This document shows positions 15,595 to 36,653 of a stretch of DNA of 64,000 nt, one piece after another. Position numbers and translations under genes: made by a program. The stretch spans positions 1,302,001-1,366,000 of the forward strand of contig NZ_LT629693.1 of NCBI RefSeq assembly GCF_900099825.1. Reading direction: 5' to 3'. The DNA is from Bradyrhizobium ottawaense (lineage in GTDB: Bacteria; Pseudomonadota; Alphaproteobacteria; Rhizobiales; Xanthobacteraceae). Every line of letters begins with the position of its first letter. Position 1 is the stretch's first letter. The notes below the pieces were generated by a model. It saw only the letters and a program-made list of their open reading frames with translations. It did not search any database and was not told the origin of the DNA.

Positions 15595-15788
15595 CCGGCA
15601 CTCCGAAAGTTCAATGCCACGCGCTCGCGCGGCGCCTCAAGGTGAAGCTAGTCATTGCCGCCTCGCCGCGCAAACCGGTCACGACCATCGGCGCACTTGC
15701 GCCGCGGCTGGACTCGGGCAACATGGATCGGCAATATCCGCCGCAACCTGGCGGAAAAAAAGCTGATCAAAGCGGGGAATTCGAACAC

Positions 15789-17384: not shown

Positions 17385-17401
17385 GCAGGCTTCAATCCAG
17401 G

Positions 17402-17428
17402 GTCCCGGCGGCTTCAGGCTTCCGGGAC
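17402..17428 (+). other. intercistronic hairpin between binding-protein and permease genes
   Basis: GTCCCGG (17402-17408) and CCGGGAC (17422-17428) form a perfect 7-bp stem with a 13-nt loop and no T-run. Such stems after binding-protein genes often stabilise the upstream mRNA so that the binding protein is made in excess. The function here is inferred from position. Confidence 0.5.
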
Positions 17429-17485
17429 TTCTCGTTTCCAGGCGACAGCGACGTCAGCCGCAGCAGAGAAAAGTGAAAGGAAACC

Positions 17486-18466
17486 ATGCTCGCTTTCACT
17501 CTTCGCCGCGCCATACAGGCCATCGGCGTCATGATTGCGGTCGGAATTATCTCGTTCTCGATGTTCCGTTTCGCCGGCGATCCGGTCAACCAGATCGTCT
17601 CGATCGACACATCGGCCGCGGAACGCGCGGCGGTGCGCCAATCGCTTGGCCTCGATGATCCCGTACCGGTGCAATTCGTCCGTTATTTTGCCAATGCCGC
17701 GCAATTCAAGTTCGGGGTGTCCTATCAATTCCGCCAGCCGGTGGCGAACCTGTTGATGGAACGGATGCCGGCCACGCTGGAGCTCGCGGTCTGCGCCACG
17801 TTTCTCGCGATGCTGTTCGGCATCCTGATGGGGGTCTACTCGGCATTGCGGCGCGACACTGTGCTGACCAGAATATTCCAGGCGGTCTCGCTGATCGGAA
17901 TATCGCTGCCGACGTTCCTGATCGGCATCCTGCTGATCTATCTGTTCTCGGTAACGCTGGGCTGGCTGCCGTCGTTCGGCCGCGGCGACGTGGTGCGGAT
18001 CGGCTGGTGGACCACCGGCCTGCTCACGCTTTCCGGCCTCAAGGCGCTGATCCTGCCCTCGATCACGCTCGGCCTGTTCCAGATGACCCTGATCATGCGT
18101 CTGGTGCGCGCCGAAATGCTCGAAGTGCTCCGTACCGATTACATCCGGTTTGCCCGCGCCCGCGGCCTGACCACACGCGCCATCCATTTCGGCCACGCGC
18201 TCAAGAACACGCTGGTTCCCGTCATCACCGTCGCCGGATTGCAGTTTGGCTCGGTAATTGCTTTTGCGATCATCACCGAAACCGTGTTCCAGTGGCCCGG
18301 TATGGGATTGTTGTTCGTGCAGGCCGTGCAAAATGTCGATATCCCGATCATGGCGGCCTACCTGCTGATGGTGTCGTTGATTTACGTCACCATCAATCTG
18401 GTGGTCGATATCCTCTACACCGTCGTCGATCCGCGCCTGCGCTCGACCCTCAGCCGTCCGACATAG
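17486..18466 (+). CDS. dipeptide-type ABC transporter permease (DppB-like)
   Basis: 326 aa with about six membrane helices. The GDPVNQI motif after the first helix and the EAA-type cytoplasmic loop (DYIRFARARGLTTRAIHFGHALKN) are typical of DppB/OppB. Start ATG 17486 after AAAGGAAACC. It pairs with the DppC-like permease 10 bp downstream to form the membrane channel. Confidence 0.93.
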   Translation: MLAFTLRRAIQAIGVMIAVGIISFSMFRFAGDPVNQIVSIDTSAAERAAVRQSLGLDDPVPVQFVRYFANAAQFKFGVSYQFRQPVANLLMERMPATLELAVCATFLAMLFGILMGVYSALRRDTVLTRIFQAVSLIGISLPTFLIGILLIYLFSVTLGWLPSFGRGDVVRIGWWTTGLLTLSGLKALILPSITLGLFQMTLIMRLVRAEMLEVLRTDYIRFARARGLTTRAIHFGHALKNTLVPVITVAGLQFGSVIAFAIITETVFQWPGMGLLFVQAVQNVDIPIMAAYLLMVSLIYVTINLVVDILYTVVDPRLRSTLSRPT

Positions 18467-18476
18467 AGAGAACACC

Positions 18477-19448
18477 ATGTCCGACGCCGTGGTCCCCCAT
18501 CCCGCCAAGCCGAACGCGCAAGCAGCACGCTTCGGCACCGGCTGGCTGAAGCGCACGCTCGACAGCGACGTGTTCTATTCGTTCCGCCGTTCCAAAATGA
18601 CGATGGTGGCGGCCGCCGTAACCGCACTGTTTTTCCTGCTGGCGCTGTTTGCATCGCAACTCTCGGTGCAGAACCCGTTCGACCCCGCGCAGTTGCAATT
18701 GATGAATTCGCGGATCTCGCCGCTGTGGACCGCGGACGGCCAGTCGCCGTTCCTGCTCGGCACCGACGAACAGGGCCGCGACGTGTTCTCGGCCATTCTC
18801 TACGGCTTGCGGGTTTCGCTCGTCGTCGGCGTGCTCGGCATGTTGTTCGCCGGTGTGCTCGGCGTCACGCTCGGGCTGGTCGCGGGCTATGTCGGCGGCG
18901 CGGTCGATGGGCTGATCATGCGCATCGCCGACGTGCAGCTGACCTTTCCCGCGATCCTGATCGCACTACTCGTCAACGGCGTCGCCAAATCCGTGTTCGG
19001 CAACCGGCTCGACGCCATGAGCACGCTGGCGGTGCTGGTGTTCGCGATCGGACTGAGTTTCTGGGTGCAATATGCCCGCACCGTCCGCGGCTCGGTCATG
19101 GTCGAGAAGAGCAAGGACTATGTCGCCGCCGCGCAATTGATCGGGCTTCCCGCCTCGAAGATCATGCTGCGGCACGTGCTGCCGAACACGATGGGGCCGA
19201 TCCTGGTGATCGCCACCATCAACCTCGGGCTCGCGATCATCACCGAAGCGACGCTGTCGTTCCTCGGCGCCGGGATGCCCGACACGATGCCCTCGCTCGG
19301 CACCCTGATCCGGATCGGCAACAATTATCTGTTCGCGGGCGAATGGTGGATCGTTGCCTTTCCCGGCCTTGCGCTGGCGGGGCTGATCCTCTCCATCAAC
19401 CTGCTGGGCGACTGGCTGCGCGACGCGCTCAATCCGAAGCTCCGATGA
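18477..19448 (+). CDS. dipeptide-type ABC transporter permease (DppC-like)
   Basis: 323 aa. It has an N-terminal membrane helix preceded by a cytoplasmic segment, then LLGTDEQGRDVFSAILYGLR, the DppC/OppC signature. The EAA loop is SKDYVAAAQLIGLPASKIMLRHVLPN. Its stop overlaps the ATG of the ATP-binding gene downstream (ATGA), so the two are translationally coupled. Confidence 0.93.
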   Translation: MSDAVVPHPAKPNAQAARFGTGWLKRTLDSDVFYSFRRSKMTMVAAAVTALFFLLALFASQLSVQNPFDPAQLQLMNSRISPLWTADGQSPFLLGTDEQGRDVFSAILYGLRVSLVVGVLGMLFAGVLGVTLGLVAGYVGGAVDGLIMRIADVQLTFPAILIALLVNGVAKSVFGNRLDAMSTLAVLVFAIGLSFWVQYARTVRGSVMVEKSKDYVAAAQLIGLPASKIMLRHVLPNTMGPILVIATINLGLAIITEATLSFLGAGMPDTMPSLGTLIRIGNNYLFAGEWWIVAFPGLALAGLILSINLLGDWLRDALNPKLR

Positions 19449-20443
19449 CAACTCCTATTCTTTCCGTGCGTAACCTCCAGGTGGAATTCCTCACCCGCCG
19501 CGCGACCTTGCGCGCGATCGACGGCGTTTCCTTCGATATCGCCAAGGGCGAGGTGCTCGGGGTGGTCGGCGAATCCGGTGCCGGCAAGTCGGTCACCGGA
19601 CTAGCGGTAATCGGGCTGATCGATCCGCCGGGCCGGATCAGTGGCGGCGAGATCTATCTGTCGGGCATGCGGATCGATCACCTGCCGCCGGAAGAAATCC
19701 GCCGCATCCGGGGAAAACGGATCGGCACGATCTTCCAGGATCCGCTGACCAGTCTCAATCCGCTCTACAGGATCGGCGACCAGATCGTCGAGACCATTCG
19801 CACCCATACCAGTCTCACGGAGACTGCCGCGCGCAAGCGCGCCATCGATCTGCTGGCGGAGGTCGGAATCCCGGCCCCGGAAAAGCGCATCGACGCCTAT
19901 CCGCACGAATTCTCCGGCGGCATGCGCCAGCGCGTCGTCATCGCGCTCGCGATCTGCGCCGAACCGGAACTGATCATCGCCGACGAGCCGACCACCGCGC
20001 TCGATGTGTCGGTCCAGGCGCAGATCATTTCACTGATCAAGCGACTCGGGCGCGATCACGGCACCGCCGTGATGCTGGTCACCCATGACATGGGCGTGAT
20101 CGCCGAGACTTCCGACCGGGTTGCCGTGATGTATTCGGGCCGGATCGCCGAGATCGGCCCGGTCAGGGATGTCGTGCAGAATCCGCTGCACCCCTATGCC
20201 AAGGGCCTGATGGGCGCGATCCCGACACTGGCGGGCGAGGACAAGCGGCTGGTGCAGATTCCGGGCTCGATGCCGCGGCTGTCGGCGATCCCGCCGGGCT
20301 GCTCGTTCAATCCGCGCTGTGCGTTCGCCTTCGACCGCTGTCGCGTCGACCGGCCGGAACCGCTGCTGCACGGCACGCAGTCGGTTGCCTGCCATCTCTA
20401 CGATACCGCGCCCCATGAAGCCGCGAAGGAGACTGCGGCATGA
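19445..20443 (+). CDS. dipeptide-type ABC transporter ATP-binding protein (DppD-like)
   Basis: 332 aa from ATG 19445. Walker A is GESGAGKS, the ABC signature SGGMRQR, and Walker [13 protein letters not shown]. The C-terminal oligopeptide-transport extension has the cysteine-rich [15 protein letters not shown]. The frame extends upstream to 18725, but that part lies inside the permease gene and is a shadow. It overlaps both neighbours by 4 bp. Confidence 0.93.
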
Positions 20444-21441
20444 GTGCGGCGCCCTTCGTCGACGTGAAGAACCTGCGCCGCGTGTTCGACGTCTCGAAAC
20501 CGTGGCTCAACCGCGTGCTGGAAGGCGGCCATCTCGAATTCCTCAAAGCCGTCGACGGCGTCACCTTCGACATCAAGAAGGGCGAGACCTTCGCGCTGGT
20601 CGGCGAATCCGGATCCGGAAAAACCACGGTGGCGCGGATGGTCGTCGGCCTGCTGCCGCCGAGTTCCGGCGAAGTCGTCATCGACGGCGTGTCGATGACC
20701 AGCACCAGGCAGGCGCAGGTACAGCAGCGCCTGCGCCGCCGCATCCAGATGATCTTTCAGGATCCCTATGCCAGCCTCAATCCGCGCTTTCGGGTCGACG
20801 CCATCGTGTCCGAGCCGATCCGCGCCTTCGACCTGATCCAGGGCGAGCGCGACATCGCCGCCCGCGTCGGCGAATTGCTGGGCCTGGTCGGCCTGCATCC
20901 CGACGACGGCCTGAAATTTCCACATGAATTTTCCGGCGGCCAGCGCCAGCGGATCGCGATTGCGCGGGCATTGGCATCCGAGGCCGAGTTTATCGTCTGC
21001 GACGAGCCGACCTCGGCACTGGATGTTTCCGTGCAGGCGCAGATCCTCAATCTGATGCGCGACCTGCAGGACAAGTTCGGCCTGACCTACCTCTTCATCA
21101 GCCATAACCTCGCCGTGGTGCGCCACATGGCGACCCGGATCGGCGTGATGTATCTCGGCCGTATCGTCGAGATCGCGGAAGGGCGCGAATTGTTCGCCAA
21201 TCCGCGGATGCCCTACACAAGGATGCTGCTGGGCGCGGTTCCAGATCTGGCGATGTCCGGCCGGCAGCGGATTCCGGTCCAGGGCGAGATCCCCAATCCG
21301 ATCGATCCGCCGCCCGGATGCGCGTTCAACCCGCGCTGCCCGCTGGCGTTCGATCTGTGCCGCAAGGAAGCGCCCGCGCTGATCGGCGGTGTGGCCTGCC
21401 ACGCCGTCAACAACCCGGCCGCCATCCCCGTCCCGGCATGA
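20440..21441 (+). CDS. dipeptide-type ABC transporter ATP-binding protein (DppF-like)
   Basis: 333 aa. Walker A GESGSGKTT, signature SGGQRQRI, Walker B FIVCDEPTSALD, and the C-terminal GCAFNPRCPLAFDLC extension. It is the second ATPase and completes a five-gene transporter (binding protein, two permeases, two ATPases). It ends the operon, convergent with the GntR gene. Confidence 0.93.
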   Translation: MSAAPFVDVKNLRRVFDVSKPWLNRVLEGGHLEFLKAVDGVTFDIKKGETFALVGESGSGKTTVARMVVGLLPPSSGEVVIDGVSMTSTRQAQVQQRLRRRIQMIFQDPYASLNPRFRVDAIVSEPIRAFDLIQGERDIAARVGELLGLVGLHPDDGLKFPHEFSGGQRQRIAIARALASEAEFIVCDEPTSALDVSVQAQILNLMRDLQDKFGLTYLFISHNLAVVRHMATRIGVMYLGRIVEIAEGRELFANPRMPYTRMLLGAVPDLAMSGRQRIPVQGEIPNPIDPPPGCAFNPRCPLAFDLCRKEAPALIGGVACHAVNNPAAIPVPA

Positions 21442-21519: not shown

Positions 21520-22392
21520 TCACGATGCCCCTCGTATTCCAGCCTTTGCCTTGTCGGCGGAATTTGGCTTGCGGCTCGTCGGGCGCCCCTTGCCAGCGGT
21601 GCGCTTGTGGCCCGCAGACAGTTCTTGCTGCGACGCACCGAGCGCAAGCGAAGGCGCTTGCGACACTTCGCGGCTGCTGCCTCCAGTTTCGGCCAGCGGG
21701 AAAAGCGGAATCTCACCTTCCGCATGGAGCCCGACCAGAAAGTCCATGCCGGCACGCATCACGTGTTCGGAAGCCAGCGTCGCGGCCGCGCGCTCGTCGC
21801 CCTCGATAATGGCCCGCAATATTGCCGCGTGTTCGTTCCAATTGCGCGCTTGCCGGGCCGGATTCATCGGCGAGAACAGCATCGCGGTTCTTTCCCGCAA
21901 TTTCTGCATGATATCCCCAAGGACCGTGTTCTGTCCTGCCGCGGCGAGTTCGCGATGAAACTGCTGGTTTAGATCGAACAGCTGCTCGAACCGCCTGGCC
22001 GTGACGGCCGCCGTGCCCTTGTTCAAGACGGTCTCGATACGCTTGATGATCAGTTTGTCCTGACGGCGTGCCGCCAGTCTGGCATTGTGCCCCTCGAGCA
22101 GCGCACGTACTTCGATGGTCTCGCGCGCTTCCTGCTCCGTCATCGTCGCAACCGCCGCCCCGCGTCGCGCGGTGACTTCGATCAGGCCCTCGGATGCCAA
22201 CGCACGAATCGCCTCGCGCACAGGGTTGCGGGATACGCCCAGTTCGTCGGCCAGCCGACCCTCGACTAACCGTTCGCCCGGTTTCAATCGTCCGGACAAA
22301 ATCGCCTGACGAAGCTCGGTGACGACCCGGTCATGAAGCGAGGAATGGTCCTCGCCAAGCCGACGCTTCGGGAGTCCAGTGGTGAGCGCCAT
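21520..22392 (-). CDS. GntR family transcriptional regulator, FCD (FadR/VanR) subgroup
   Basis: 290 aa. An N-terminal winged helix-turn-helix (residues about 17-80) contains GRLADELGVSRNPVREAIRAL. The FCD ligand-binding domain follows, with LNQQFHREL, the EHAAILRAI helix and a further His in SEHVMRAGM, which resemble its usual metal-binding set. The last 50 residues are an unusual Lys/Ser-rich tail. FCD regulators typically bind palindromes of the TTGTATACAA type, and such sites occur at 24488..24507 and 24698..24717. It lies downstream of the HDO/ferredoxin genes on the same strand (182-bp gap), so it is the likely local regulator. Confidence 0.9.
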   Translation of the reverse strand: MALTTGLPKRRLGEDHSSLHDRVVTELRQAILSGRLKPGERLVEGRLADELGVSRNPVREAIRALASEGLIEVTARRGAAVATMTEQEARETIEVRALLEGHNARLAARRQDKLIIKRIETVLNKGTAAVTARRFEQLFDLNQQFHRELAAAGQNTVLGDIMQKLRERTAMLFSPMNPARQARNWNEHAAILRAIIEGDERAAATLASEHVMRAGMDFLVGLHAEGEIPLFPLAETGGSSREVSQAPSLALGASQQELSAGHKRTAGKGRPTSRKPNSADKAKAGIRGAS

Positions 22393-22573
22393 GTCGTTAA
22401 CCTATCTCAAGAACCGATCGGCAAACCTGCAGGAATATGATGATCAACGCGCTGAAATGTCGATCGCCTGATGCTTGCACCAAGGCAGGCTGCCTGCAGC
22501 CATTCTACCGGAATCGCATTGATTTGCCATCCCGTTGCCCGAAACCAGCTCGTGTGTGAGCCGGCCGTCATGC

Positions 22574-22939
22574 TCACGGCTCCGGCTTGTCCTGCGCCGA
22601 CGTCGTCATCGCCGCTGCCGGCTCGGCACGCGGAACAGCCGCGCCGCGTTCAGCCAATGGCACCCAGGACACGCTGACGTCGCCGTGCAGGAACGTCTGG
22701 CAAGCCATTCGGTACCCCGCCTTGAACTGTTCTTCGGTCAGATGCTTGCGTTCCTTGGGCTTGACGGCATCGGTGTGTTCAAGCCCGGCCTCGATCCTGC
22801 ATTTGCAGGTGCCGCATAAGCCGCCGCCGCACTTGAAGGGGATGCCGCCCTGCTCCCGCAGCGAAACCCGCAGCAGATTGCTGTCGGCCGGAGCGCTGGC
22901 CACTTTGCCACCGTTGGTCAGGAATGTGACTTGAATCAT
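22574..22939 (-). CDS. [2Fe-2S] ferredoxin, first of two
   Basis: 121 aa. The cluster-binding pattern is CGGGLCGTCKC followed by a distal cysteine in YRMACQ, i.e. C-x4-C-x2-C...C with an extra cysteine one residue further on. A PKERKHL insertion lies before the last ligand, a feature shared with the other ferredoxin here (WKERKQL). It is probably an electron carrier to the HDO-type oxidase encoded in the same cluster (inference). The C-terminal Ala/Pro tail looks disordered. It starts 17 nt after the 104-aa gene stop. Confidence 0.9.
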   Translation of the reverse strand: MIQVTFLTNGGKVASAPADSNLLRVSLREQGGIPFKCGGGLCGTCKCRIEAGLEHTDAVKPKERKHLTEEQFKAGYRMACQTFLHGDVSVSWVPLAERGAAVPRAEPAAAMTTSAQDKPEP

Positions 22940-22956
22940 GTCGCGACCGGAAGGGT

Positions 22957-23271
22957 TCAGCTTGCTGACAGCGGCATCTTGCGCAGCTCGGTATCCATGT
23001 GACCGAATGTCGTCAGGTGCTCGAGCTCCTTAAGCGCCTGCGCCGTGGTCTCGAATTTTTCGAGGAATTTTGAAGGCACCTCGTTGACGATGGCGGTGTC
23101 GTCCTCGACCACGCGGATTTTGATCTTCTCTTCAAGCAGCTCCGCGATCACGAAATGCGCCTTGATGTGCCCGTAGAACCTGTAGTCGTAAGCCTCCAGA
23201 GGCCGCAGCCCGTCGACAGCTTCAGTTCTGAACTGTCCAGGCTTGCTCGTCAGGATGACATACATGCTCAT
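22957..23271 (-). CDS. 104-aa orphan protein between two ferredoxin genes
   Basis: Start ATG 23271 has a near-perfect ribosome site (AAGGAGGA). A longer frame to 23523 is the shadow of the upstream ferredoxin. The sequence has YVILTSKPGQFRTEAVDGL, an aromatic patch YDYRFYGHIKAHFVIAELL, then an acidic strand and an amphipathic helix FLEKFETTAQALKELEHL. I do not recognise a family. The ATGA overlap with the upstream ferredoxin and its position between two ferredoxins and an HDO suggest a small coupling/effector component of the oxygenase, or an assembly factor; this is inference. Confidence 0.8.
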   Translation of the reverse strand: MSMYVILTSKPGQFRTEAVDGLRPLEAYDYRFYGHIKAHFVIAELLEEKIKIRVVEDDTAIVNEVPSKFLEKFETTAQALKELEHLTTFGHMDTELRKMPLSAS

Positions 23272-23642
23272 TCCTCCTTGCTGCCGGCGCCTTGCGGAAC
23301 GACGGCCGACACAGCCGACGCCGACACTGCCGACCAGGGCTCGATCGGGTTCTTGTCCTGCGCCAACTCGACATCGTGATTGAGCCACAACTGGCAAATC
23401 AGGCGGTAGCCATCGTCCAGCCGGGGGCCGAGCTGCTTCCGTTCCTTCCAGTTCGGCACCGGCAGCTGCTCTGCACCCTTGAGAACGCGGCAGGCACATT
23501 TCGCGCATTTCCCCATCCCGCATCCGTAGCGCAGATGCGGAAAGGGAAACTGCTTGATGCCGGCCCGGACCACCAGATTGGTGTTCTCGGCAATCTCGCC
23601 CTGGTAGGCGTGGCCGTCGCGATGAAGAATGACAGTCGGCAC
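23268..23642 (-). CDS. [2Fe-2S] ferredoxin, second of two
   Basis: 124 aa. The ligand pattern CGMGKCAKCAC and a distal cysteine in YRLICQ repeat the C-x4-C-x2-C-x-C layout of the neighbouring ferredoxin. The proteins are clearly related but far from identical (GMGKCAK against GGGLCGT), so they may have different redox partners or potentials. The gene starts 4 nt after the HDO stop and overlaps the 104-aa gene by ATGA, so all are cotranslated. Confidence 0.9.
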   Translation of the reverse strand: MPTVILHRDGHAYQGEIAENTNLVVRAGIKQFPFPHLRYGCGMGKCAKCACRVLKGAEQLPVPNWKERKQLGPRLDDGYRLICQLWLNHDVELAQDKNPIEPWSAVSASAVSAVVPQGAGSKEE

Positions 23643-23646
23643 CTGG

Positions 23647-24417
23647 TTACGCCTGCAGCAATCGACGCTCGTCCTGCGGGACCTTGCGCTCGACGGCCTC
23701 GAGTTCGCTCATCGGCACCTCCTGCGCGACATAGTCCCAATACAGCGCCGTGGTGTAGAGCAACCGCATCTGCGCGCCGACTTCGCAGATCTTCAGGCAT
23801 CGCTGCTGCAGTTCAACGGTGTTGGCATGTTCGAGAACGATCTGATAGCCGCGCTCGCCATGGATTTCGTCGGACACGATGTGGAGATCGAAGAACTCGA
23901 CCTCTTCGTCGCTGAACTTGTACTTCTCGCGCAGCGTCGGGGTCTGCTTGCGATAGATCGACGGCACCTGCGACTCCAGCCCGACGACCAGGCCGGCGAC
24001 CGCGACGATCGGATCCTCGCGCATGGCAACGGAATAGCACCAGCTCTGCAGGCCGCGCGTCGTAGCGGTCATGTTGTCGGGATCGATCACCCGCTCGCGC
24101 GTGGTGCCGCAGGCTTCGGCGAAGCGAATCAGCAGGTCGGTATGGCGGTCGCCGCCGATCTCCTCCTCGTACATATTGGCGAGCAGGAAATCCTTTGCTT
24201 CGGTGTAACGATCCGGCATCCGTGCATAGATATAGGCAAGGTAGTCCGCGAACGGTCCGACGTAGTGGAAGTGGTTCTCGGCCCACCTCGCCAGATGGGC
24301 GCGGCTGAGTTTTCCGGCGGCCCAGGCGATGCTGAACGGCGCCTTGTTGGCGCTTTTACCCTTGATCGCATTCTCGAGGGCGGTGCGGAATTCCACATGG
24401 TTCATCAATTCGGGCAT
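23647..24417 (-). CDS. haem-oxygenase-like diiron oxidase/oxygenase (HDO; TenA/PqqC-like fold)
   Basis: 256 aa, all-helical by composition. The residues expected for the HDO diiron site are present with the family spacing: Glu85-x6-His92 (in EEEIGGDRH), Glu148 (GLESQ), and His179-x3-Asp183-x2-His186 (DLHIVSDEIH). This argues for a metal-dependent O2-activating enzyme rather than a thiaminase or cofactor-free PqqC. Known HDOs carry out N-oxygenation, C-C cleavage or olefin formation; the substrate here is unknown. It is first in the minus-strand operon with two ferredoxins. An operator-like palindrome lies about 71 bp upstream of the ATG. Confidence 0.85.
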   Translation of the reverse strand: MPELMNHVEFRTALENAIKGKSANKAPFSIAWAAGKLSRAHLARWAENHFHYVGPFADYLAYIYARMPDRYTEAKDFLLANMYEEEIGGDRHTDLLIRFAEACGTTRERVIDPDNMTATTRGLQSWCYSVAMREDPIVAVAGLVVGLESQVPSIYRKQTPTLREKYKFSDEEVEFFDLHIVSDEIHGERGYQIVLEHANTVELQQRCLKICEVGAQMRLLYTTALYWDYVAQEVPMSELEAVERKVPQDERRLLQA

Positions 24418-24487
24418 CTTCGCTCTCCCTTTGTGCCTTTATGGCGAATTGGCTGCTGCGCCTCGTCTGGCTTCAAGGCTTATGATT

Positions 24488-24507
24488 GAATATTGTATAC
24501 AATTCTA
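24488..24507. promoter_or_regulatory. GntR/FCD-type operator, HDO side
   Basis: GAATATTGTATACAATTCTA contains the perfect 12-bp palindrome ATTGTATACAAT (24492-24503). This is the operator form known for several FCD-type GntR regulators. It lies 71-90 bp upstream of the HDO ATG and is 17/20 identical to the site at 24698..24717. Confidence 0.75.
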
Positions 24508-24697
24508 GGAGCGAGTCAAGACGGCGGATGGGCCCTGCCCTTTTGCCTGTGCGAGCAAACCTCGGTGGAGCAAATGTAGCTGAGATTCCTAGAAAAATCG
24601 ACTATTTCTTAGGCAATGGATCACTGCGCGATTGCCCTGGGTCGAAGGCATGACCACACAATCCGAATCGAAATCCGCAGTTTTCTATTGCATTTTG

Positions 24698-24717
24698 GAA
24701 TACAGTATACAATTCTG
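24698..24717. promoter_or_regulatory. GntR/FCD-type operator, permease side
   Basis: GAATACAGTATACAATTCTG matches the other site at 17 of 20 positions, with the GTATACAATTCT core intact. It lies 60-79 bp upstream of the permease ATG. The offset from the first site is exactly 210 bp, about 20 turns of B-DNA, which would put both sites on one face. Confidence 0.72.
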
Positions 24718-24776
24718 CACATCATTGAAACGATATCGCGGTAATCATCCGCTTTTGCCGGTCTCTGGGGGGAGCC

Positions 24777-26315
24777 ATGACAAGTCACATCACCATCGGC
24801 GCGGCGCACTGGGTCTATCTCGCCGGGGTCGCCATCATCGTCGTGACCATGATCTTGCGCGCCAATGTCGTCGTGCCGTCCATCGTCGCGACCCTTCTGG
24901 TGGCGCTGGCCTGGTCGCATAGCCCGGTGACGGCTGTTGGCAGCGTCTTCAACGCGAGCTTCACGGCGGCAAAGGAGCTCTTCAACATATTCCTCGTGAT
25001 CGCGCTGATGACGGCGCTGTTGAATGCCCTGAAGGTGCTGCGTTCGGACATCCGGATGGTCGAACCGTTTCGCGCGGTCATGAAAAACGGTCATGCCGCA
25101 TACTTTGTGCTCGCCGCGATCACCTATGTGATTTCCCTGTTCTTCTGGCCTACGCCCGCGGTGCCGCTGGTGTCGGCGGTGCTGCTGCCGGCCGCGATCG
25201 CCGCCGGCCTGCCGCCGCTCGCCGGCGCGATGGCGATCGCCATCGCCGGCCAGGGCATGGCGCTGTCGTCCGATTACGTGATCGGCGTGGCACCCGGCAT
25301 CAGCGCGAAGGCCGCGGGCGCAGCGGTGAGTGCGGCAATGGTGGCCGACCGGGCCCTGGTGCTGTCGCTGATCACCGGTTCGATCGCCCTGTTGCTGGCC
25401 TACCTCTCGATCCGCAAGTCGATCGTGCCGCCCAGCAATTCCCTGCTCGATCGATGGCAGGCGCAATCGAGCAACGGCGACCTGGCCCGGATCGAGGCCG
25501 AAGGAACCTTCGACAAGGCCGAGATCGCGCGCGGCACCAGCCAGGAGCCGCTGGTCAGCGATGCGCAGGTTTCCAAAGAGCTCTCGATGATCGGCCGGAA
25601 GCGGATCGGATGGTCGAAGTTCTTTGCCATCGCGACGCCGCTGGCCTTCCTCTGTGTCATCGTGCTGATGATGATGTCCAAGCTCGGCTACGGCCACGAT
25701 CTGAAGGGTGGCGAAGCCGCCGCGCTGGTCGGCGGTGTCGCGGCATTGCTGATGGTGTGCGCGGCATTCGCCACCGACGGGCTGCGCAAGGCGATGGACA
25801 CCAGCGCCGACCATGTCACGGAGGGTTTCGTTTTTGCTTTCCGTGCCATGGGGTCGGTGCTGCCGATCGCGGGCTTCTTCTTCCTCGGCGCTGGCGGCGA
25901 TCTTGCGGCTTCGATTCTCAACGTGCCGGCCGCGCAGGCCCCGAGCCTCCTGTTCGAACTGATTCAGAGCGCCCAAGGCTGGATTCCCAACAACCACTTC
26001 CTGGTGGCGTTCGGCGTCCTGGTGGTTGGCATGATCACGGGAATCGACGGCTCCGGCTTTGCCGGCCTGCCGCTGACCGGCTCGCTGTCCGGCGCGCTGG
26101 CACCCGGCGCCGGGCTCCACCCCGCGACGCTGGCCGCGGTGGGCCAAATGGGAGCGGTATGGACCGGCGGCGGCACGCTGATTGCGTGGTCGTCGCTGAT
26201 CGCGGTCGCCGGGTTCGCGCGCGTGCCGGTGTTCCAGATCGTGAATTCGGTGCTCGTGCCGGTGCTGACCGGACTTGGCGTATCGACATTGTGCGCTGTG
26301 ATGTTGTGGAACTAG
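24777..26315 (+). CDS. ion-transporter-superfamily permease (GntP-like)
   Basis: 512 aa with about 12 hydrophobic segments in two halves, separated by a hydrophilic loop around residues 215-280. Features such as FFWPTPAVPLVSAVLLPAAI and GITGIDGSG-like sequence (MITGIDGSGFAGLPLTGSLS) occur at equivalent re-entrant positions of each half, as in transporters of the GntP/IT superfamily for organic anions. It is first gene of the plus-strand operon, preceded by GGGGGGAGCC. It presumably imports the pathway substrate, likely a carboxylate or amino-acid-like anion (inference). Confidence 0.72.
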   Translation: MTSHITIGAAHWVYLAGVAIIVVTMILRANVVVPSIVATLLVALAWSHSPVTAVGSVFNASFTAAKELFNIFLVIALMTALLNALKVLRSDIRMVEPFRAVMKNGHAAYFVLAAITYVISLFFWPTPAVPLVSAVLLPAAIAAGLPPLAGAMAIAIAGQGMALSSDYVIGVAPGISAKAAGAAVSAAMVADRALVLSLITGSIALLLAYLSIRKSIVPPSNSLLDRWQAQSSNGDLARIEAEGTFDKAEIARGTSQEPLVSDAQVSKELSMIGRKRIGWSKFFAIATPLAFLCVIVLMMMSKLGYGHDLKGGEAAALVGGVAALLMVCAAFATDGLRKAMDTSADHVTEGFVFAFRAMGSVLPIAGFFFLGAGGDLAASILNVPAAQAPSLLFELIQSAQGWIPNNHFLVAFGVLVVGMITGIDGSGFAGLPLTGSLSGALAPGAGLHPATLAAVGQMGAVWTGGGTLIAWSSLIAVAGFARVPVFQIVNSVLVPVLTGLGVSTLCAVMLWN

Positions 26316-26330
26316 CGAAGGGTAAAGGTC

Positions 26331-27827
26331 ATGAATGACGCGGCAGTATCGATGGCGCGCGCTGCGCCGGTGCGCGACGGAATCGAAAAGTTCAAAAACT
26401 ATATCGATGGCGAATGGGTAGCGGGCCGGACCGGCGCGTATTTCGACGACGTCAATCCCGCCGATACGTCCGACATCGTCGGCCAATTCCCCGCCTCTTC
26501 GGCGGCAGACGCCGAAGTGGCCGTGCGCGCGGCGGCGGCTGCCTGCGCGAGCTGGAAAAAGACCCCGATCACCGTGCGGGCAAGGATCCTCAATGGCGCC
26601 GCCAGCTATCTGGAGACGCATGTTGATCGATTCGCGGAGGAGTTGACGCGGGAGCAAGGCAAGGCGCTCAATCTGAGCAAGGACGAGATCCTGCGCTCGG
26701 CGCAAACGCTGCGATTCTATGCCGTCGAAGGTCAGTCGTTCGCGGGCGAGACCTTCCCCAATGACGATGCCGACATGGTCGTCTACACCCAGCGCGAGCC
26801 GCTGGGTGTGGTGTCGGTCATCACGCCGTGGAACTTTCCGGTATCCATCGCGGCGCGAAAAATCGCGCCGGCGCTGATCGCCGGCAACACCGTCGTATTC
26901 AAGCCGTCGTCCGACGCGCCGCTGAGCGGCTATCGCCTCACGGAAGCCTTCGTCGCCGCAGGAATTCCCAAGGGTGTGCTCAATTTTGTCACCGGGCGCG
27001 CCGCCGATGTCGGCCCGGCGATCACCGTGCCGCCGGTCGTACGCGCTATATCCTTCACGGGATCTACCTCGGCCGGCGAACAGATTCACCGCTCGGTCGG
27101 CTTCACCACACGCACCCAGATGGAGCTCGGCGGCAAGAATCCGCTGATCGTGATGGAGGATGCGGATCTCGACAAGGCCGTGGACCTGACCATCAAGGGC
27201 GGCCTGTCGCTGAGCGGACAAGCCTGCACCGGGACCAGCCGTGTGCTGGTAATGCAACAGGTCAAGGCGGCGTTCACCGACAAGTTCGTGGCCAGGGTGA
27301 AGGCGCTGAAGATCGGGAGCGGTCTTGTTGCCGGAAACGATATCGGTCCACTGGCTACGGCGCGCCAACTGGAAACCGTGCTGCGTTACATCGAGATCGG
27401 CAAGCGCGAGGCGACGTTGCTGTGCGGCGGCGAACGCCTGAGCGGTCCGGCTTACGGCCGCGGCTATTACGTATCGCCCGCGATTTTTACCGATGTCACC
27501 CAGGACATGCGGATCGCGCGCGAGGAGATATTCGGACCAGTGATCGCCCTCATCGAGGTGACGAGCTACGCGGATGCGATCGCGAAAGCCAACGATACCG
27601 AATACGGCCTGTCGGCTGCGATCGCGACGCGCAATCCGCGTTACATTCATGACTTCGCGAACGACATCGAGTCGGGAACCGTCAAGATCAACCGCACCAC
27701 GACCGGCAATCTGATCAATGCGCCGTTCGGTGGGCTCAAGCGCTCCAGCACGTCGGCCTTTCGCGAGTCGGGTCGCGCCGGCCTAGAGTTCTACACGCAA
27801 ATCAAGACGGTCTATCGCGGCTGCTGA
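26331..27827 (+). CDS. NAD(P)-dependent aldehyde dehydrogenase
   Basis: 498 aa, full length. It has the PWNFPVSIAARKIAPALIAGN cofactor/oxyanion region, the general-base MELGGKNP motif, and the catalytic Cys299 in GQACTG. Overall features resemble the alpha-ketoglutarate-semialdehyde and succinate-semialdehyde dehydrogenase group, but the exact substrate cannot be read. It follows the permease by 15 nt and would oxidise an aldehyde produced by the HDO or a later step. Confidence 0.92.
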   Translation: MNDAAVSMARAAPVRDGIEKFKNYIDGEWVAGRTGAYFDDVNPADTSDIVGQFPASSAADAEVAVRAAAAACASWKKTPITVRARILNGAASYLETHVDRFAEELTREQGKALNLSKDEILRSAQTLRFYAVEGQSFAGETFPNDDADMVVYTQREPLGVVSVITPWNFPVSIAARKIAPALIAGNTVVFKPSSDAPLSGYRLTEAFVAAGIPKGVLNFVTGRAADVGPAITVPPVVRAISFTGSTSAGEQIHRSVGFTTRTQMELGGKNPLIVMEDADLDKAVDLTIKGGLSLSGQACTGTSRVLVMQQVKAAFTDKFVARVKALKIGSGLVAGNDIGPLATARQLETVLRYIEIGKREATLLCGGERLSGPAYGRGYYVSPAIFTDVTQDMRIAREEIFGPVIALIEVTSYADAIAKANDTEYGLSAAIATRNPRYIHDFANDIESGTVKINRTTTGNLINAPFGGLKRSSTSAFRESGRAGLEFYTQIKTVYRGC

Positions 27828-27884
27828 TCGACGACGGCTCGAACCATCCGTCGACACCTACAATTCGAACACCGGGACAAGGAC

Positions 27885-28364
27885 ATGAGAGCTGCATTCA
27901 AGCTGGAACTCGAGGAGGCGCGTCACATGGTTGCCGCTGCCATCCGCAAATCCAAGGAGATCGGCGTGCTGGAGACGGTCTGCGTCGCCGATGAAGGCGG
28001 CTATCCGTTGGCGCTGGAGCGAATGGATCGCGCCAGGGTGACTGGACCGCAGATCGCCTGGAACAAGGCCTTCACGGCGGCGGGCCACCGGCGATCGACC
28101 CATCTGTTCAATCAGTCGCCGAACGGGCCGGCGCTTCCCGGTAACGAGGCGTTCGGCATCCAGTGGAGCTTCGAGGGCAGGTTCGCCGTTTTCGTTGGCG
28201 GCTTTCCGATCGTGGTCGACGACGAAGTCGTTGGCGGGGTCGGCCTCAGCGGCGGCAATGGCGAGCAGGATATCGCCTGCGGCCTGGCCGCGCTTCAGGC
28301 TCTACAGGAACTGCTGGCGCCGAAGAACCATCGGGTGCTGGTTCTGGCCGACATCAAGATGTGA
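27885..28364 (+). CDS. GlcG/HbpS family protein (DUF336)
   Basis: 159 aa. LEEARHMVAAAIRKSKEIG, then VCVADEGGYPLALERMDRA and the C-terminal VVGGVGLSGGNGEQDIACG are characteristic of the GlcG/HbpS family. Members bind haem or corrinoid-type cofactors or act as accessory proteins in glycolate, propanediol and aromatic catabolism. Its stop overlaps the reductase start (TGATG), so the two are coupled. Its role here is not known; a cofactor-binding or sensor function is possible. Confidence 0.88.
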   Translation: MRAAFKLELEEARHMVAAAIRKSKEIGVLETVCVADEGGYPLALERMDRARVTGPQIAWNKAFTAAGHRRSTHLFNQSPNGPALPGNEAFGIQWSFEGRFAVFVGGFPIVVDDEVVGGVGLSGGNGEQDIACGLAALQALQELLAPKNHRVLVLADIKM

Positions 28365-29386
28365 TGGACCGCATGGTCTATCGGGTGCAGGTGGCCGGGA
28401 CAGAGCGGGCGTTCGAGGCGACCCCGGACGAAACCATCCTCGACGCGGCGCTGCGTGCCAATGTCAACCTGCCGCACGACTGCAGACTCGGGGGCTGCGG
28501 CACCTGCCGCATCAGGCTGGTCGAAGGTTCGGTCAGCTATGCCGAGTTCCCGCTGGCGCTGACACCGGACGAGGAAAGCCGGGGTTACGCCCTCGCCTGC
28601 CAGGCGATGCCCGCCGGCGATCTGGTCATCGAACCGGCGCGCGGCCTGACTGAGATGCCGCCGGCGGCGCGCCACCACGCCGTGGTGACGGCCGTTCGAC
28701 CGGTCAGCGCCCTGGTCACGCATCTTGTGCTGGAAGTCCCGGCAGCTGCTTTCCTGGACTACCGGCCGGGGCAGTACATGAACGTCATGTTGCCTGACGG
28801 AACCACACGCAGCTTCTCGATGGCGTCGATCCCCTGTGACAATCGGGTCGATTTTCAGATCCGGCAGATCGAAGGTGGATCGTTCACCCAGGGCATGCTG
28901 CAACGGGTGCAGGCCGGCGACAAATTGGAGGTCGAGCTGCCGCTTGGCACCTTCCACCTCCGTGCCGAGGACGACCGGCCGCTGCTGATGGTTGCCACCG
29001 GCACGGGGATCGCGCCGATCAAGGCCATCCTGGAATCGCTGATGGATAATCCGGATTGTCCGCCCGTCAGCCTGTACTGGGGCGGGCGCACGGCCGCTGA
29101 CCTGTTTCTGTTCGACGAGATCCGGACATGGGGCAGACGGTTATTCGAGTTCAATTTCGTGCCGGTGCTGTCCCGCGCCGATGCAGCTTGGGAGGGGCGC
29201 AGGGGTCACGTGCAGCACGCCGTTACCGCTGATTTTGACGACCTCTCGGAACATGCTATTTATTTGTGCGGGTCGCCCGCGATGATCATCGACGCCAAAC
29301 TGGCTTTCATCGACCGGCGCGCCTCAATGGAGCACATTTACAGCGAAGGCTTCAGCCACCAACGCGCACGACCCGTCCAAGCGTGA
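28364..29386 (+). CDS. [2Fe-2S]/FAD/NAD(P) ferredoxin reductase (oxygenase reductase type)
   Basis: 340 aa from ATG 28364. The N-terminal plant-type [2Fe-2S] domain has CRLGGCGTC and a distal ACQA. The FAD domain follows, with YMNVMLPDGTTRSFSMAS, and the NAD domain has LMVATGTGIAPIKAIL and YLCGSPAMI. This domain order (ferredoxin-FAD-NAD) is that of reductases of multicomponent oxygenases and of AscD-like enzymes. It would deliver NAD(P)H electrons to the two ferredoxins and the HDO (inference). The frame upstream to 28163 is a shadow of the GlcG-like gene. Confidence 0.9.
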   Translation: MDRMVYRVQVAGTERAFEATPDETILDAALRANVNLPHDCRLGGCGTCRIRLVEGSVSYAEFPLALTPDEESRGYALACQAMPAGDLVIEPARGLTEMPPAARHHAVVTAVRPVSALVTHLVLEVPAAAFLDYRPGQYMNVMLPDGTTRSFSMASIPCDNRVDFQIRQIEGGSFTQGMLQRVQAGDKLEVELPLGTFHLRAEDDRPLLMVATGTGIAPIKAILESLMDNPDCPPVSLYWGGRTAADLFLFDEIRTWGRRLFEFNFVPVLSRADAAWEGRRGHVQHAVTADFDDLSEHAIYLCGSPAMIIDAKLAFIDRRASMEHIYSEGFSHQRARPVQA

Positions 29387-29500
29387 TCCTTGGCATGATC
29401 ACGCGGATGGGAGCAATGCGTGGCATACCACGGGTTGGCATCCAGCGCCGGCTGTGATCAAGTGCGGCCGCACCGAATACCAGCGCAAAATTGGACTCCC

Positions 29501-31306
29501 ATGGGCAACATCAATCCCGATCCGTTCACAACCCGGCCGGAAATCGAAGGCACGTTCGGCGTGGTCACCTCGACCCACTGGATCGCGACCGCGGTCGGCA
29601 TGGGCATCCTGGAAAAGGGCGGCAACGCCTTCGACGCCGGTGTCGCCACCGCCTTTACGCTGCAGGTGGTCGAGCCGCATCTCAACGGCCCCGGCGGCGA
29701 CGTTCCGATCATTGTGCATGATACCAAACGCGGCCGCACCGAAGTGATCTGCGGCCAGGGCCCGGCGCCGGCGAAGGCGACCATCGCCCATTACAAGAGC
29801 GAGGGGCTGGAGATGGTGCCGGGCACCGGTCTTCTGGCGGCCTGCGTGCCCGGGACGTTCGAATCCTGGATGATGCTGCTGCGCGATTACGGCACGATGC
29901 GTTTGCGCGACGTGCTGGAACCCGCGATCGCCTACGCCCGCGACGGTTACCCGCTGGTCGAGCGCGCGGCGGCGACGATCCAGATCGTCGAAAAACTGTT
30001 CAAGAAGCATTGGCCCACCTCGGCCGCGGTGTATCTGCCGAACAATGAGGTGCCGAAGCCCGGCACGCTCTTCACCAACAAGCAGCTCTCGGAAACCTAC
30101 GCCCGTATCCTGAAGGAAGCCGAGAGCGCCGGCTCCGATCGCGTGGCGCAGATCGAGCGCGCGCGGAAATCCTGGTCGCACGGCTTTGTGGCGGAAGCCA
30201 TCGACAAGTTCTGCCGCACGCAGGAAGTTATGGACGTTTCCGGCTCGCCGCATAAGGGCGTGCTCTCGGCCGACGACATGGCGCGCTGGCAGCCGACCAT
30301 TGAAGCGCCCCTCACCTACGACTACGGCCGCTATACCGTCTGCAAGCCGGGCGTCTGGAGCCAGGGCCCGGTGATGCTGCAACAGCTCGCGCTGTTGAAG
30401 GGATTCGAACTCGACGGGCTCGATCCCGCCGGACCCGACTTCATCCATCTGCAGATCGAATGCGCCAAGCTTGCATTCGCCGACCGCGAGAAATTCTACG
30501 GTGATCCTGACTTCACCGACATTCCGATCACGACGCTGCTGTCGGACGCCTATAACGACGAGCGCCGCAAGCTGATCTCGCGGGACAAGGCCTCGCTCGA
30601 TTTCCTGCCCGGTTCGGTCGAGGGCTTTGGCTCGGTGGTCAAGATGCGCCGCGCGGAGGGGCATCGCGAGGCCGTTGGCGCCATGGGCGCGGGCGAGCCG
30701 ACCGTCGGCCGCTTCGGCGAAGTGCGCGGCGACACCGTGCATTTCGACATTATCGACCGGGCCGGCAACATGATCTCGGCGACGCCGTCCGGCGGCTGGC
30801 TGCAATCCTCGCCGGTCATTCCCGAACTCGGCTTCTGCCTCGGCAGCCGCGCCCAGATGTTCTGGCTGGAGGAGGGTCACCCCGCGGCGCTGGCGCCGGG
30901 CAAGCGTCCGCGCACCACGCTCTCGCCGACCATGTGCTACCGCGACGGCGAGCCCTACATGGCCTGGGGTTCGCCCGGCGGCGATCAGCAGGACCAATGG
31001 ACCACGCAGTTCTTCCTGCGCCATGTCCACGCCAAGCTGAACCTGCAGGAAGCGATCGACGCGCCGGCCTGGCACTCCGAACATTTCCCGATCTCGTTCT
31101 GGCCGCGCACCTCGCGCCCCGGCGTGCTCGTCGTTGAAAACCGCGTGCCGAAGCCGACGATCGATACCCTGAAGGACCGCGGCCATATCGTCGAGGTCGG
31201 CCCCGACTGGTCGGAGGGCCGCCTTACCGCCGCCTCCAAAATTGGCCGCCGCCGCCGCGCCGCCGCCAATCCGAGGGGCATGCAGGGTTACGCGGCGGGA
31301 CGATAA
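29501..31306 (+). CDS. ggt: gamma-glutamyltransferase family protein
   Basis: 601 aa from ATG 29501. The heterodimer-generating nucleophile threonine is Thr412 in GDTVHFDIID, and PSGGWLQSS, RPRTTLSP and WGSPGGDQQ follow in family order. No clear signal peptide is seen, so it may be cytoplasmic. GGT enzymes cleave gamma-glutamyl amides such as glutathione or transfer the glutamyl group. It begins an operon with a DUF1028 protein and a peptide ABC transporter, a recurring arrangement that suggests hydrolysis of an imported peptide-like substrate. Confidence 0.88.
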   Translation: MGNINPDPFTTRPEIEGTFGVVTSTHWIATAVGMGILEKGGNAFDAGVATAFTLQVVEPHLNGPGGDVPIIVHDTKRGRTEVICGQGPAPAKATIAHYKSEGLEMVPGTGLLAACVPGTFESWMMLLRDYGTMRLRDVLEPAIAYARDGYPLVERAAATIQIVEKLFKKHWPTSAAVYLPNNEVPKPGTLFTNKQLSETYARILKEAESAGSDRVAQIERARKSWSHGFVAEAIDKFCRTQEVMDVSGSPHKGVLSADDMARWQPTIEAPLTYDYGRYTVCKPGVWSQGPVMLQQLALLKGFELDGLDPAGPDFIHLQIECAKLAFADREKFYGDPDFTDIPITTLLSDAYNDERRKLISRDKASLDFLPGSVEGFGSVVKMRRAEGHREAVGAMGAGEPTVGRFGEVRGDTVHFDIIDRAGNMISATPSGGWLQSSPVIPELGFCLGSRAQMFWLEEGHPAALAPGKRPRTTLSPTMCYRDGEPYMAWGSPGGDQQDQWTTQFFLRHVHAKLNLQEAIDAPAWHSEHFPISFWPRTSRPGVLVVENRVPKPTIDTLKDRGHIVEVGPDWSEGRLTAASKIGRRRRAAANPRGMQGYAAGR

Positions 31307-31339
31307 AAGGCAGGGCGGCTTAGAGATGGTTTGCCGAAC

Positions 31340-32050
31340 ATGACCTGGTCGATCATCGCCCGCGATTCCCTGACCGGCCAGTTCGGTATCGCGGTTGCGA
31401 CCAAGTTTTTCGCGGTCGGCGCCCGTGTGCCGCATATCGCGGCCGGCATCGGCGGCGTCGCGACGCAGGCGCTGGTCAATCCCTATTACGGCATTGATGG
31501 TCTCGCATTGTTGCGTGAGGGACGCGAGCCCCGCGCGATCGTCGAAACGCTGATCGCCGCCGATGCCGGCCGCGAGAGCCGGCAACTGCACATCATGGAT
31601 GCCAACGGCCGTATTGCCGCCTTTACCGGCCGCGAATGCGTCGACTGGTGCGGCCATGTTCAGGGCGACGGCTTCTCTATCGCCGGCAACATGCTGGCGG
31701 GCGCATCCGTACTCGACGACACTGCAAAGGCGCTTGTCGCCAACGCCAGCCTTCCCTTTGCGCAGCGGCTGATCGCAGCCTTAAAGGCCGGCGAGGCCGC
31801 CGGCGGCGACAAGCGCGGCAAGCAGTCGGCGGCGCTGTTGATCCACGGCGAGGAGGAGTGGTCCGATCTCGACCTGCGCGTCGACGACCACGCCGATCCG
31901 CTGGCCGAACTCGAACGGCTCGAGCAAGTCAGCCGCGAGCGCTGGGTGCATTTCCGCCCCTTTCTGCCGACGCGAAAGAACCCGGCCGGAATCACCGACC
32001 GCGCGAAAATCGACGCAAGCGTCGAAGCGGCCACCGCGGGCAAGGCATGA
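31340..32050 (+). CDS. DUF1028 family Ntn-hydrolase-like protein
   Basis: 236 aa from ATG 31340 (MTWSIIARD); a TTG three codons earlier (31331) is the alternative. SIIARDSLTGQFGIAVATK, then AGIGGVATQALVNPYYG and GNMLAGASVL are hallmarks of DUF1028, a family with an Ntn-hydrolase fold, uncharacterised function and frequent linkage to peptidase and ABC transporter genes. Its TGA overlaps the ATG of the ATPase gene. It is likely a peptide or amide hydrolase. Confidence 0.88.
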   Translation: MTWSIIARDSLTGQFGIAVATKFFAVGARVPHIAAGIGGVATQALVNPYYGIDGLALLREGREPRAIVETLIAADAGRESRQLHIMDANGRIAAFTGRECVDWCGHVQGDGFSIAGNMLAGASVLDDTAKALVANASLPFAQRLIAALKAGEAAGGDKRGKQSAALLIHGEEEWSDLDLRVDDHADPLAELERLEQVSRERWVHFRPFLPTRKNPAGITDRAKIDASVEAATAGKA

Positions 32051-33036
32051 CGGCAGGCCCGCTGATCGAAATCGAGGGCCTGCGCGTCGTCTTCCATGGC
32101 GACGACGGCCGTACGACCCATGCGGTCGACAGCGTCGACCTCAGCGTCGCCAATGGTGCCACGCTTGGACTGGTCGGCGAGTCCGGCTGCGGCAAGAGCG
32201 TGACGTCGCTTGCCATCATGGGACTGTTGTCAAAGCACTCGGCCGAGGTCTCGGGCTCGATCCGCTTCGATGGCTTCGACCTGCTCGACGTGCCCGACCA
32301 GACCCTGCGCGACCTCAGGGGAAATCGCCTGGCGATGATCTTTCAGGAGCCGATGACGTCGCTCAATCCGAGTTTTACGATCGGCGACCAGATCATCGAG
32401 ACGATTTTGCGCCATCGTGGCGGCTCCAAGCGCCAGGCGCGCGAGCGCGCGATCGAACTGCTGCGCCGCGTCCATATCCCCTCGCCCGACAAGCGGATCG
32501 ACGACTATCCGCACAAGCTGTCCGGCGGCATGCGTCAGCGCGTGATGATCGCGATGGCGCTGGCCTGCGATCCCCGCCTGCTGATCGCCGACGAACCGAC
32601 TACGGCCCTCGATGTCACCTTGCAGGCGCAGATCCTCGACCTGATGCGCGAATTGAAGGCGGCAAGCGGTGCCGCGATCATCCTGATCACCCACGACCTC
32701 GGCGTCGTCGCCGAAGTCTGCGACGAGGTCGCGGTGATGTATGCCGGCGAGATCGTCGAACGGGCGTCGGTGAATGAGCTGTTCGCCAACCCGCAACATC
32801 CCTACACGGTCGGCCTGCTCGGCTCGATCCCGCGGCTCGACCGCCGCACCTCGCATCTGGCAACGATCGAGGGCATGGTGCCGAACATGGCCAACCCGCC
32901 AGCCGGATGCCGCTTCGCCGCACGTTGCCCCTTCGTCGTCGCGGCCTGCATCGCCGCCCCGCCGCCGCTGGCGATGGTGAGCGACGGCCACGCCTCGCGC
33001 TGCATCCGGGCGCCGCTGGAGAGGCTGGTATCATGA
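32047..33036 (+). CDS. peptide-type ABC transporter ATP-binding protein (DppD-like)
   Basis: 329 aa from ATG 32047. Walker A GESGCGKS, signature SGGMRQR, Walker [13 protein letters not shown], and C-terminal [15 protein letters not shown]. It overlaps both neighbours by 4 bp. The upstream extension of the frame to 31636 lies inside DUF1028 and is a shadow. Confidence 0.93.
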
Positions 33037-34142: not shown

Positions 34143-34165
34143 TCGTGGAGATGGGGATAGCAACA

Positions 34166-35677: not shown

Positions 35678-35707
35678 CCACTGCAACGCTGGGGATGCGA
35701 TAGCACC

Positions 35708-36649: not shown

Positions 36650-36653
36650 CGCG

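Follow-up and report, generated by a model that had tools for sequence, protein, structure and literature searches.

A stretch of 64,000 nt from the Bradyrhizobium ottawaense genome (contig NZ_LT629693.1, positions 1,302,001 to 1,366,000; hereafter the window, whose numbering is used unless another locus is named) encodes a heme-oxygenase-like dinuclear metal oxygenase (HDO) within two tight divergent operons. The conserved core of the cluster consists of the HDO, two [2Fe-2S] ferredoxins (FdA and FdB), a private protein of 104 amino acids (the 104-aa protein) and a protein of the GlcG type. We consider it rather probable from the sequence evidence that this is a dedicated catabolic regulon, in which the HDO would oxidize a small, probably nitrogen-bearing acid released from an amide, using electrons delivered by a chain of NAD(P)H, reductase and ferredoxin.

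Gene layout, conservation and a shared palindrome

A 359-bp region (24418-24776) separates the two operons. To its left, on the minus strand, lie the genes for the HDO (23647-24417, 256 amino acids; PF14518, 122.7 bits with a cut-off of 28.9), FdB (23268-23642, 124 amino acids, GTG start; PF00111, 30 bits), the cysteine-free 104-aa protein (22957-23271) and FdA (22574-22939, 121 amino acids; PF00111, 48 bits). By their coordinates, HDO and FdB are separated by 4 nt, FdB overlaps the 104-aa gene, and FdA follows after 17 nt. A GntR/FCD transcription regulator (21520-22392, minus strand; PF00392 and PF07729) is encoded 181 bp beyond this operon. To the right, on the plus strand, come a permease of an unnamed membrane protein family (24777-26315, 512 amino acids), an aldehyde dehydrogenase (ALDH; 26331-27827; PF00171, 535 bits), the GlcG/HbpS-like (DUF336) protein (27885-28364; PF03928, 111 bits) and a ferredoxin-FAD-NAD(P) reductase of BenC-like architecture (28364-29386; PF00111, PF00970 and PF00175), with gaps of 15 and 57 nt and an overlap between the last two genes. 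Every gene that a first-pass annotation, made from the letters alone, had placed here was found at the same coordinates and on the same strand by open reading frame (ORF), Pfam and NCBIfam analysis.

The HDO keeps an intact predicted dinuclear metal site, as the same annotation had claimed. All six ligands (E85-x6-H92, E148 and H179-x3-D183-x2-H186) are invariant in 108 of 108 aligned stretches, taken as the best stretch per locus with some loci holding the same gene, and 16 of these stretches are only 26-43% identical. PF14518 and PF03070 are the only Pfam families matched by the protein. Elsewhere in the window genome, a second PF14518 match is located at G000:C1:5040597-5040926 (36 bits, over the cut-off).

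To follow the cluster across genomes, we scanned 84,980 species genomes (one per species) for the HDO and collected the best 80 of 517 HDO-like stretches which, with three plasmid records, gave 83 loci. Presence was counted by tblastn with identity and coverage limits in the 62 loci with at least 20 kb; the 21 shorter ones were dropped, as were L001 and L002, which belong to the window's own genome. Gene calls in the other loci came from a simple ORF script, which places starts only approximately and overlooks some small genes. The HDO, being the query, is present in 62 of 62 by design. FdB, the 104-aa protein and FdA also occur in every one of these loci, always within 1.2 kb of each other. 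GlcG/HbpS is found in 61 and a GntR homolog, anywhere in the stretch, in 60; ALDH (55), the permease (53) and the reductase (40) are less constant, and an OCD-family gene is present in 32. The gene set, whose search in other genomes had been proposed in the first-pass annotation, thus recurs in Bradyrhizobium, Cupriavidus, Achromobacter, Variovorax, Paraburkholderia, Dankookia and others, and its clustering exceeds chance. Only 33 of the 62 loci have the HDO and FdB side by side on one strand, so the partnership of the HDO with the ferredoxins appears to outlast rearrangement. In broader samples, 10 of 289 genomes of the class had an HDO at E<=1e-20, that of the window genome being followed by a match of 45% identity; in the Cupriavidus order the figure was 7 of 300, with the centre genome counted. 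Two HDO copies, both 92% identical to that of the window, lie in one locus of Cupriavidus basilensis KF708 (L026, 5900-6694 and 10001-10720), along with two permeases.

The divergent region contains the palindrome AATTGTATACAATATT, exact at 24489-24504, and a copy with two mismatches at 24699-24714 (24.0 bits), for a chance expectation of 0.02 per window; the first-pass annotation mentions neither. The first lies in an operator-like site (24489-24506) upstream of the HDO operon, and its exact 12-base core ATTGTATACAAT (24492-24503) occurs once in the whole 8.3 Mb genome, a single contig of 8.34 Mb; the second site is upstream of the permease operon. A shared operator-like palindrome therefore precedes both operons, which is the pattern of a GntR/FCD regulon at the sequence level. 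Across the 83 loci, 107 of the 111 sites with at most two mismatches fall inside the cluster spans (646 kb) and four outside (943 kb). A matrix derived from these sites and applied at 15 bits gave 301 matches, whereas 20 column-permuted controls averaged 3.25 and reached 12 at most.

We then counted the genes with a site within 450 bp upstream, for which other ORFs provide a background of 15 in 749. An intergenic site between divergent genes was counted for both, and genes internal to an operon are not expected to have one. Sites precede the HDO in 77 of 83 cases and the permease in 60 of 68, counts that are in part built in, since these loci also served to train the matrix. The amidase (17/21) is independent in this respect, its 21 loci having given the training no site outside the core span. 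An NMT1-type binding protein has sites in 6/6, two of them (L017 and L072) probably by construction, and a second gamma-glutamyltranspeptidase (GGT) type, GGT2, in 3/5, two of the three (L020 and L023) by construction. The remaining counts are 25/36 for a TauE-type exporter, 27/79 for GntR, 9/37 for OCD, 13/70 for ALDH, 11/82 for FdB, 3/79 for GlcG and 0/47 for the reductase. As a rare palindrome is common to both operons, to the clusters and to accessory genes, the cluster looks like one regulon. It is most likely regulated by its own GntR/FCD protein, which is nearly constant in the loci; the palindrome type fits FCD regulators.

Several other genes were rejected as regulon starts: an alpha/beta hydrolase (0/4), TctC (0/12), SBP1 (0/3) and two MFS groups (0/21 and 0/2). 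The 21 MFS genes follow the amidase, so they could share its site. Outside the cluster, sites with at most one mismatch number five in the window genome, two in genome G289 and none in genome G290, whose cluster locus (L069) has weaker palindrome sites. Six of these sites were inspected by ORF translation, and the one ORF searched further is a carbon-nitrogen hydrolase (PF00795, 121 bits). Its gene lies in the window genome downstream of the one-mismatch palindrome ATTGTGTACAAT (L130, G000:C1:1564779-1564790) and is possibly another regulon member, or a chance match. In Achromobacter, an 85-aa ORF without Pfam match (L069 9542-9799 and relatives) runs divergently from the HDO, with the palindrome common to both; related ORFs are found near GntR in several Cupriavidus loci.

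Accessory genes and predicted substrate class

Three different hydrolases of amide-type bonds are palindrome-linked in different lineages. The first is an amidase-signature enzyme (PRK06170, 699 bits with a cut-off of 503, tested in L039). The second, an isochorismatase-family hydrolase, is located in or beside the NMT1 operon with its own site in one of six loci, and its RutB and BiuH matches are under the cut-offs. The third is the GGT-like GGT2, which is distinct from the GGT of the window (about 27-31% identical). Their link to the palindrome suggests that in many cases an amide or gamma-glutamyl conjugate is hydrolyzed to supply the substrate. The OCD-family gene is found after FdA in some lineages and before the HDO in Cupriavidus. 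In two loci without OCD other dehydrogenases take its place: L014 has an aspartate dehydrogenase (380.5 bits with a cut-off of 253) 4 nt after FdA, and L036 a saccharopine-dehydrogenase-like ORF directly after FdA. This replacement points to an imine or amino-acid step. Given the linked amide-type hydrolases and the dehydrogenase pattern, an amide-released, nitrogen-bearing acid is favored, and the substrate class is most likely a nitrogen-bearing carboxylate. Homocysteate, cysteate, canavanine and taurine were considered as named substrates and dropped, as no result supports a choice.

The permease adds little to this picture. No Pfam or NCBIfam family scores over its cut-off, a weak, sub-threshold DUF969 match being seen in 2 of 16 members, and PDB searches with the single sequence and the profile gave no result. 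The names among its best 120 homologs are hypothetical or uncharacterized membrane protein, plus one 'H+/gluconate symporter'; among relatives that carry an organism name, the nearest comes from Afipia sp. GAS231 (98%). The first-pass proposal that the HDO acts on an imported anion goes further than such an unnamed permease allows. The ALDH is nearest to alpha-ketoglutaric semialdehyde dehydrogenases, at 549 bits under the NF042993 cut-off of 770.

Across the loci, the GlcG protein is kept more consistently than the ALDH, the permease or the reductase. Its closest solved relatives are 2a2l, NahX (9jth) and EfgA (6bws). According to the available text of one source, the DUF336 protein EfgA senses formaldehyde and DUF336 genes occur in several catabolic gene clusters (PMC8153426). 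EfgA, NahX and GlcG share PF03928 with the window protein, which is instead a near-constant partner of an HDO. Because of this constancy, and because it is kept between HDO and GntR in a locus with a distant HDO (L101, described below), the GlcG protein probably has a direct role in the system.

A different chemistry would apply if the HDO hydroxylated the carbon beside the sulfonate or C-S group of an amino- or acyl-amino-sulfonate, yielding an aldehyde and sulfite, with the TauE-type protein exporting sulfite or an organosulfur anion. A TauE/SafE-family gene, which leaves room for a sulfonate substrate, occurs in 31 of the 62 loci, is site-linked as counted above, and scores over the PF01925 cut-off in the four cases tested (over the 83 loci, tblastn with limits gives 35 and the site count 36, owing to differing presence criteria). 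Such genes are, however, plentiful, with 6-16 matches per genome, and are found neither in the Bradyrhizobium-type loci nor in the window; moreover, members of the TauE family also handle compounds other than sulfite. A SorA sulfite dehydrogenase (697 bits with a cut-off of 600, tested in L069) is encoded beside the cluster in six Achromobacter loci and in Cupriavidus sp. EM10, followed in 7/7 by a frame with a CxxCH motif. Yet no palindrome precedes SorA in any of these seven loci, and it was rejected as a regulon member. It is also missing from other Achromobacter loci (L078, L081 and L084), and in the four genomes tested SorA exceeds its cut-off in three and is far from the cluster in two. 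The NMT1 protein matches SsuA/TauA types weakly (38 and 29 bits, far under the cut-offs). The SorAB genes beside the cluster would suit a sulfonate substrate, but as they lack the palindrome link and the NMT1 matches are weak, the case was not based on either, and no sulfonate-specific gene over its cut-off was found in the regulon. We regard sulfite release as a possibility, though an unlikely one. The SorAB genes lie at 8123-9355 in L069 and at 6465-7712 in L005, in two genera. The 85-aa ORF beside the HDO was set aside as a SorB candidate: it has no CxxCH, and the CxxCH frame instead follows SorA.

Beyond the reductase, the plus-strand operon of the window possibly extends into two more genes. 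A GGT-family hydrolase (29420-31306, plus strand; PF01019, 402 bits), absent from the first-pass annotation, begins 33 nt past the reductase, an order equaled in L006 only. A DUF1028 protein (31331-32050, plus strand; PF06267, 251 bits) follows and has the same place in L006. Dpp/Opp-type ABC transporter genes, their ORFs judged by eye, flank the cluster at 15642-21441 and 31636-37541, and the binding proteins of both systems match GsiB best (156 and 197 bits with a cut-off of 594). Farther away, at 11558-13105 on the minus strand, lies a wax ester/triacylglycerol synthase family acyltransferase (408 bits with a cut-off of 310).

Electron transfer and relatives of the HDO

In the proposed catabolic system, NAD(P)H would reduce the Fer2-FAD-NAD reductase or, in loci without a cluster copy, a reductase of the host, and electrons would pass to FdB and/or FdA and on to the diferric HDO. 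The diferrous enzyme would bind O2 to form a peroxo intermediate, as in most characterized HDOs, and oxidize a small organic acid. The product would be an aldehyde or an imine; the ALDH would oxidize the aldehyde, and many lineages would add an imine or amino-acid dehydrogenase (OCD family, aspartate dehydrogenase or saccharopine-dehydrogenase-like). The Cx4Cx2C motif of [2Fe-2S] proteins is present in FdA (Cys37, 42 and 45), FdB (Cys41, 46 and 49) and the reductase, with a later cysteine in both ferredoxins (Cys80 and Cys83, respectively). The reductase scores 216 bits with NF040810, under the cut-off of 430.

The 104-aa protein may be an effector or assembly partner, by analogy, not homology, with the partner proteins of about 100 residues used by soluble diiron monooxygenases. 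It has no family match in Pfam or NCBIfam and no significant PDB match in single sequence and profile searches. Some sources name it a ferredoxin, a label that we consider unsupported, since its profile matches that of FdA with a probability of only 0.3%. In two class samples, its profile was detected in 1 of 289 and 1 of 369 genomes, each time the centre genome, an HDO carrier, and it had no match in any sampled genome other than HDO carriers. Four of five further HDO carriers have the protein as well.

Several observations, together with the training and double counting of sites mentioned above, weigh against the proposed system. The loci sampled are those of the closest relatives, with Bradyrhizobium, Cupriavidus and Achromobacter represented redundantly. 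ALDH, to which the first-pass annotation had assigned the removal of an aldehyde, is missing from seven of the 62 loci. Transporters and hydrolases differ, so the substrate may vary by lineage. A local reductase is lacking in 22 of the 62 loci; among three Bradyrhizobium genomes without one, two have no homolog at E<=1e-40 and the third has three (34-41% identity), and the reductase thus appears replaceable. The remaining one of the five further carriers (L139) contains HDO, GlcG, FdB and FdA, with no 104-aa gene and no palindrome at 15 bits, so that the 104-aa protein is not absolutely required. Finally, in L101 (8429-11087) a 45%-identical HDO is accompanied by GlcG, located between HDO and GntR, by GntR and by a Rieske-domain protein, with no ferredoxin pair in the 20 kb covered. 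As a separate observation, a second HbpS-like gene (PF03928, 88 bits) lies near the HDO cluster of L139, at 11967-12488.

The arrangement in L101, the separation of HDO and FdB in many loci and the inconstant reductase would all fit ferredoxins and a reductase that serve a different oxygenase, the HDO working alone or with another donor. Against this, the ferredoxin pair accompanies the HDO in every one of the 62 loci, in several arrangements, and no other oxygenase is nearly as constant: a FAD_binding_3-type ORF group is near in six loci, and Rieske genes are present in some. Separate service of this kind is, in our judgment, improbable.

The closest solved sequences to the HDO are CADD/4-aminobenzoate synthases and PqqC (CADD with 61 bits over residues 10-189), and one source calls relatives pyrroloquinoline-quinone synthase. 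A biosynthetic or cofactor-making HDO of this sort, rather than a catabolic one, is nonetheless very improbable, as the curated models TIGR04305 (CADD) and TIGR02111 (PqqC) score 93.9 and 50.9 bits with cut-offs of 200 and 240, Ser29 and Gln158 stand at the positions of CADD Tyr27 and Lys152, which we take to be its self-sacrificed residues, and sharing an operator with a permease, an ALDH, an amidase and a transporter befits a catabolic system. Identity with either enzyme was rejected on these scores, and with CADD also on the two replacements. CADD (1rcw, 8va9) has a metal ligand set of the same type as the window HDO and uses a lysine of its own in addition to the tyrosine. It is described, in the part of the source available, as a single-turnover enzyme that uses its own tyrosine (PMC11363339).

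Relation to known systems and significance

Of the pathway outlined in the first-pass annotation, the conserved catabolic-type unit, the shared palindrome and the intact dinuclear site stand. Its electron chain, from NAD(P)H through the reductase and a ferredoxin to the HDO, gains a precedent in MboA-MboB, where an HDO needs its own FAD/2Fe-2S reductase, and is weakened by the loci that lack the reductase. The annotation knew of no described pathway with this gene set, and none was found in a full-text literature search in which subscription journals are thinly covered. The system is real, conserved and probably co-regulated; its families are ordinary and their combination is new as far as searched.

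The closest system in print is MboA-MboB of mangotoxin biosynthesis, an HDO with a dedicated FAD/2Fe-2S NAD(P)H reductase (PMC13185094). Both it and the window system pair an HDO whose metal site is intact with an iron-sulfur flavin reductase dedicated to it. It is biosynthetic, however, and acts on a peptide, and the available parts of the paper mention no separate ferredoxins or small partner, whereas the window system looks catabolic and includes two ferredoxins, the 104-aa protein and GlcG. As far as the accessible text of the sources goes, SznF, UndA and BesC need an outside reductant and MboA needs MboB (PMC11363339, PMC13185094), and MboAB, reported in 2026, is possibly the first characterized dedicated pair of an HDO and a redox partner (PMC13185094). 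The HDOs met in our literature search, as described in the text available, are biosynthetic, and their re-reduction is largely open.

Among other oxygenases, MMO and T4MO consist of a hydroxylase, a [2Fe-2S] protein, a partner of about 100 residues and a Fer2-FAD-NAD reductase. By analogy, the window system may work like a soluble diiron multicomponent monooxygenase. Its hydroxylase belongs to the HDO family PF14518, in contrast to the ferritin-like hydroxylase of MMO and T4MO, and the 104-aa protein has no homology to MmoB or TmoD detectable at the sequence level in Pfam, NCBIfam or PDB profile searches. For these two reasons we do not consider the system a member of the soluble diiron monooxygenases.

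Tentatively, the cluster might represent a new multicomponent O2-activating oxygenase, made of an HDO hydroxylase, two private ferredoxins and a small effector, and the first HDO to feed catabolism; in many soil Proteobacteria it might cleave an amino-sulfonate or some related compound freed from an amide. The cluster has its own electron carriers and occurs in the culturable genera Cupriavidus, Bradyrhizobium and Variovorax, and its regulator and short palindrome make discovery of the substrate testable with a reporter.

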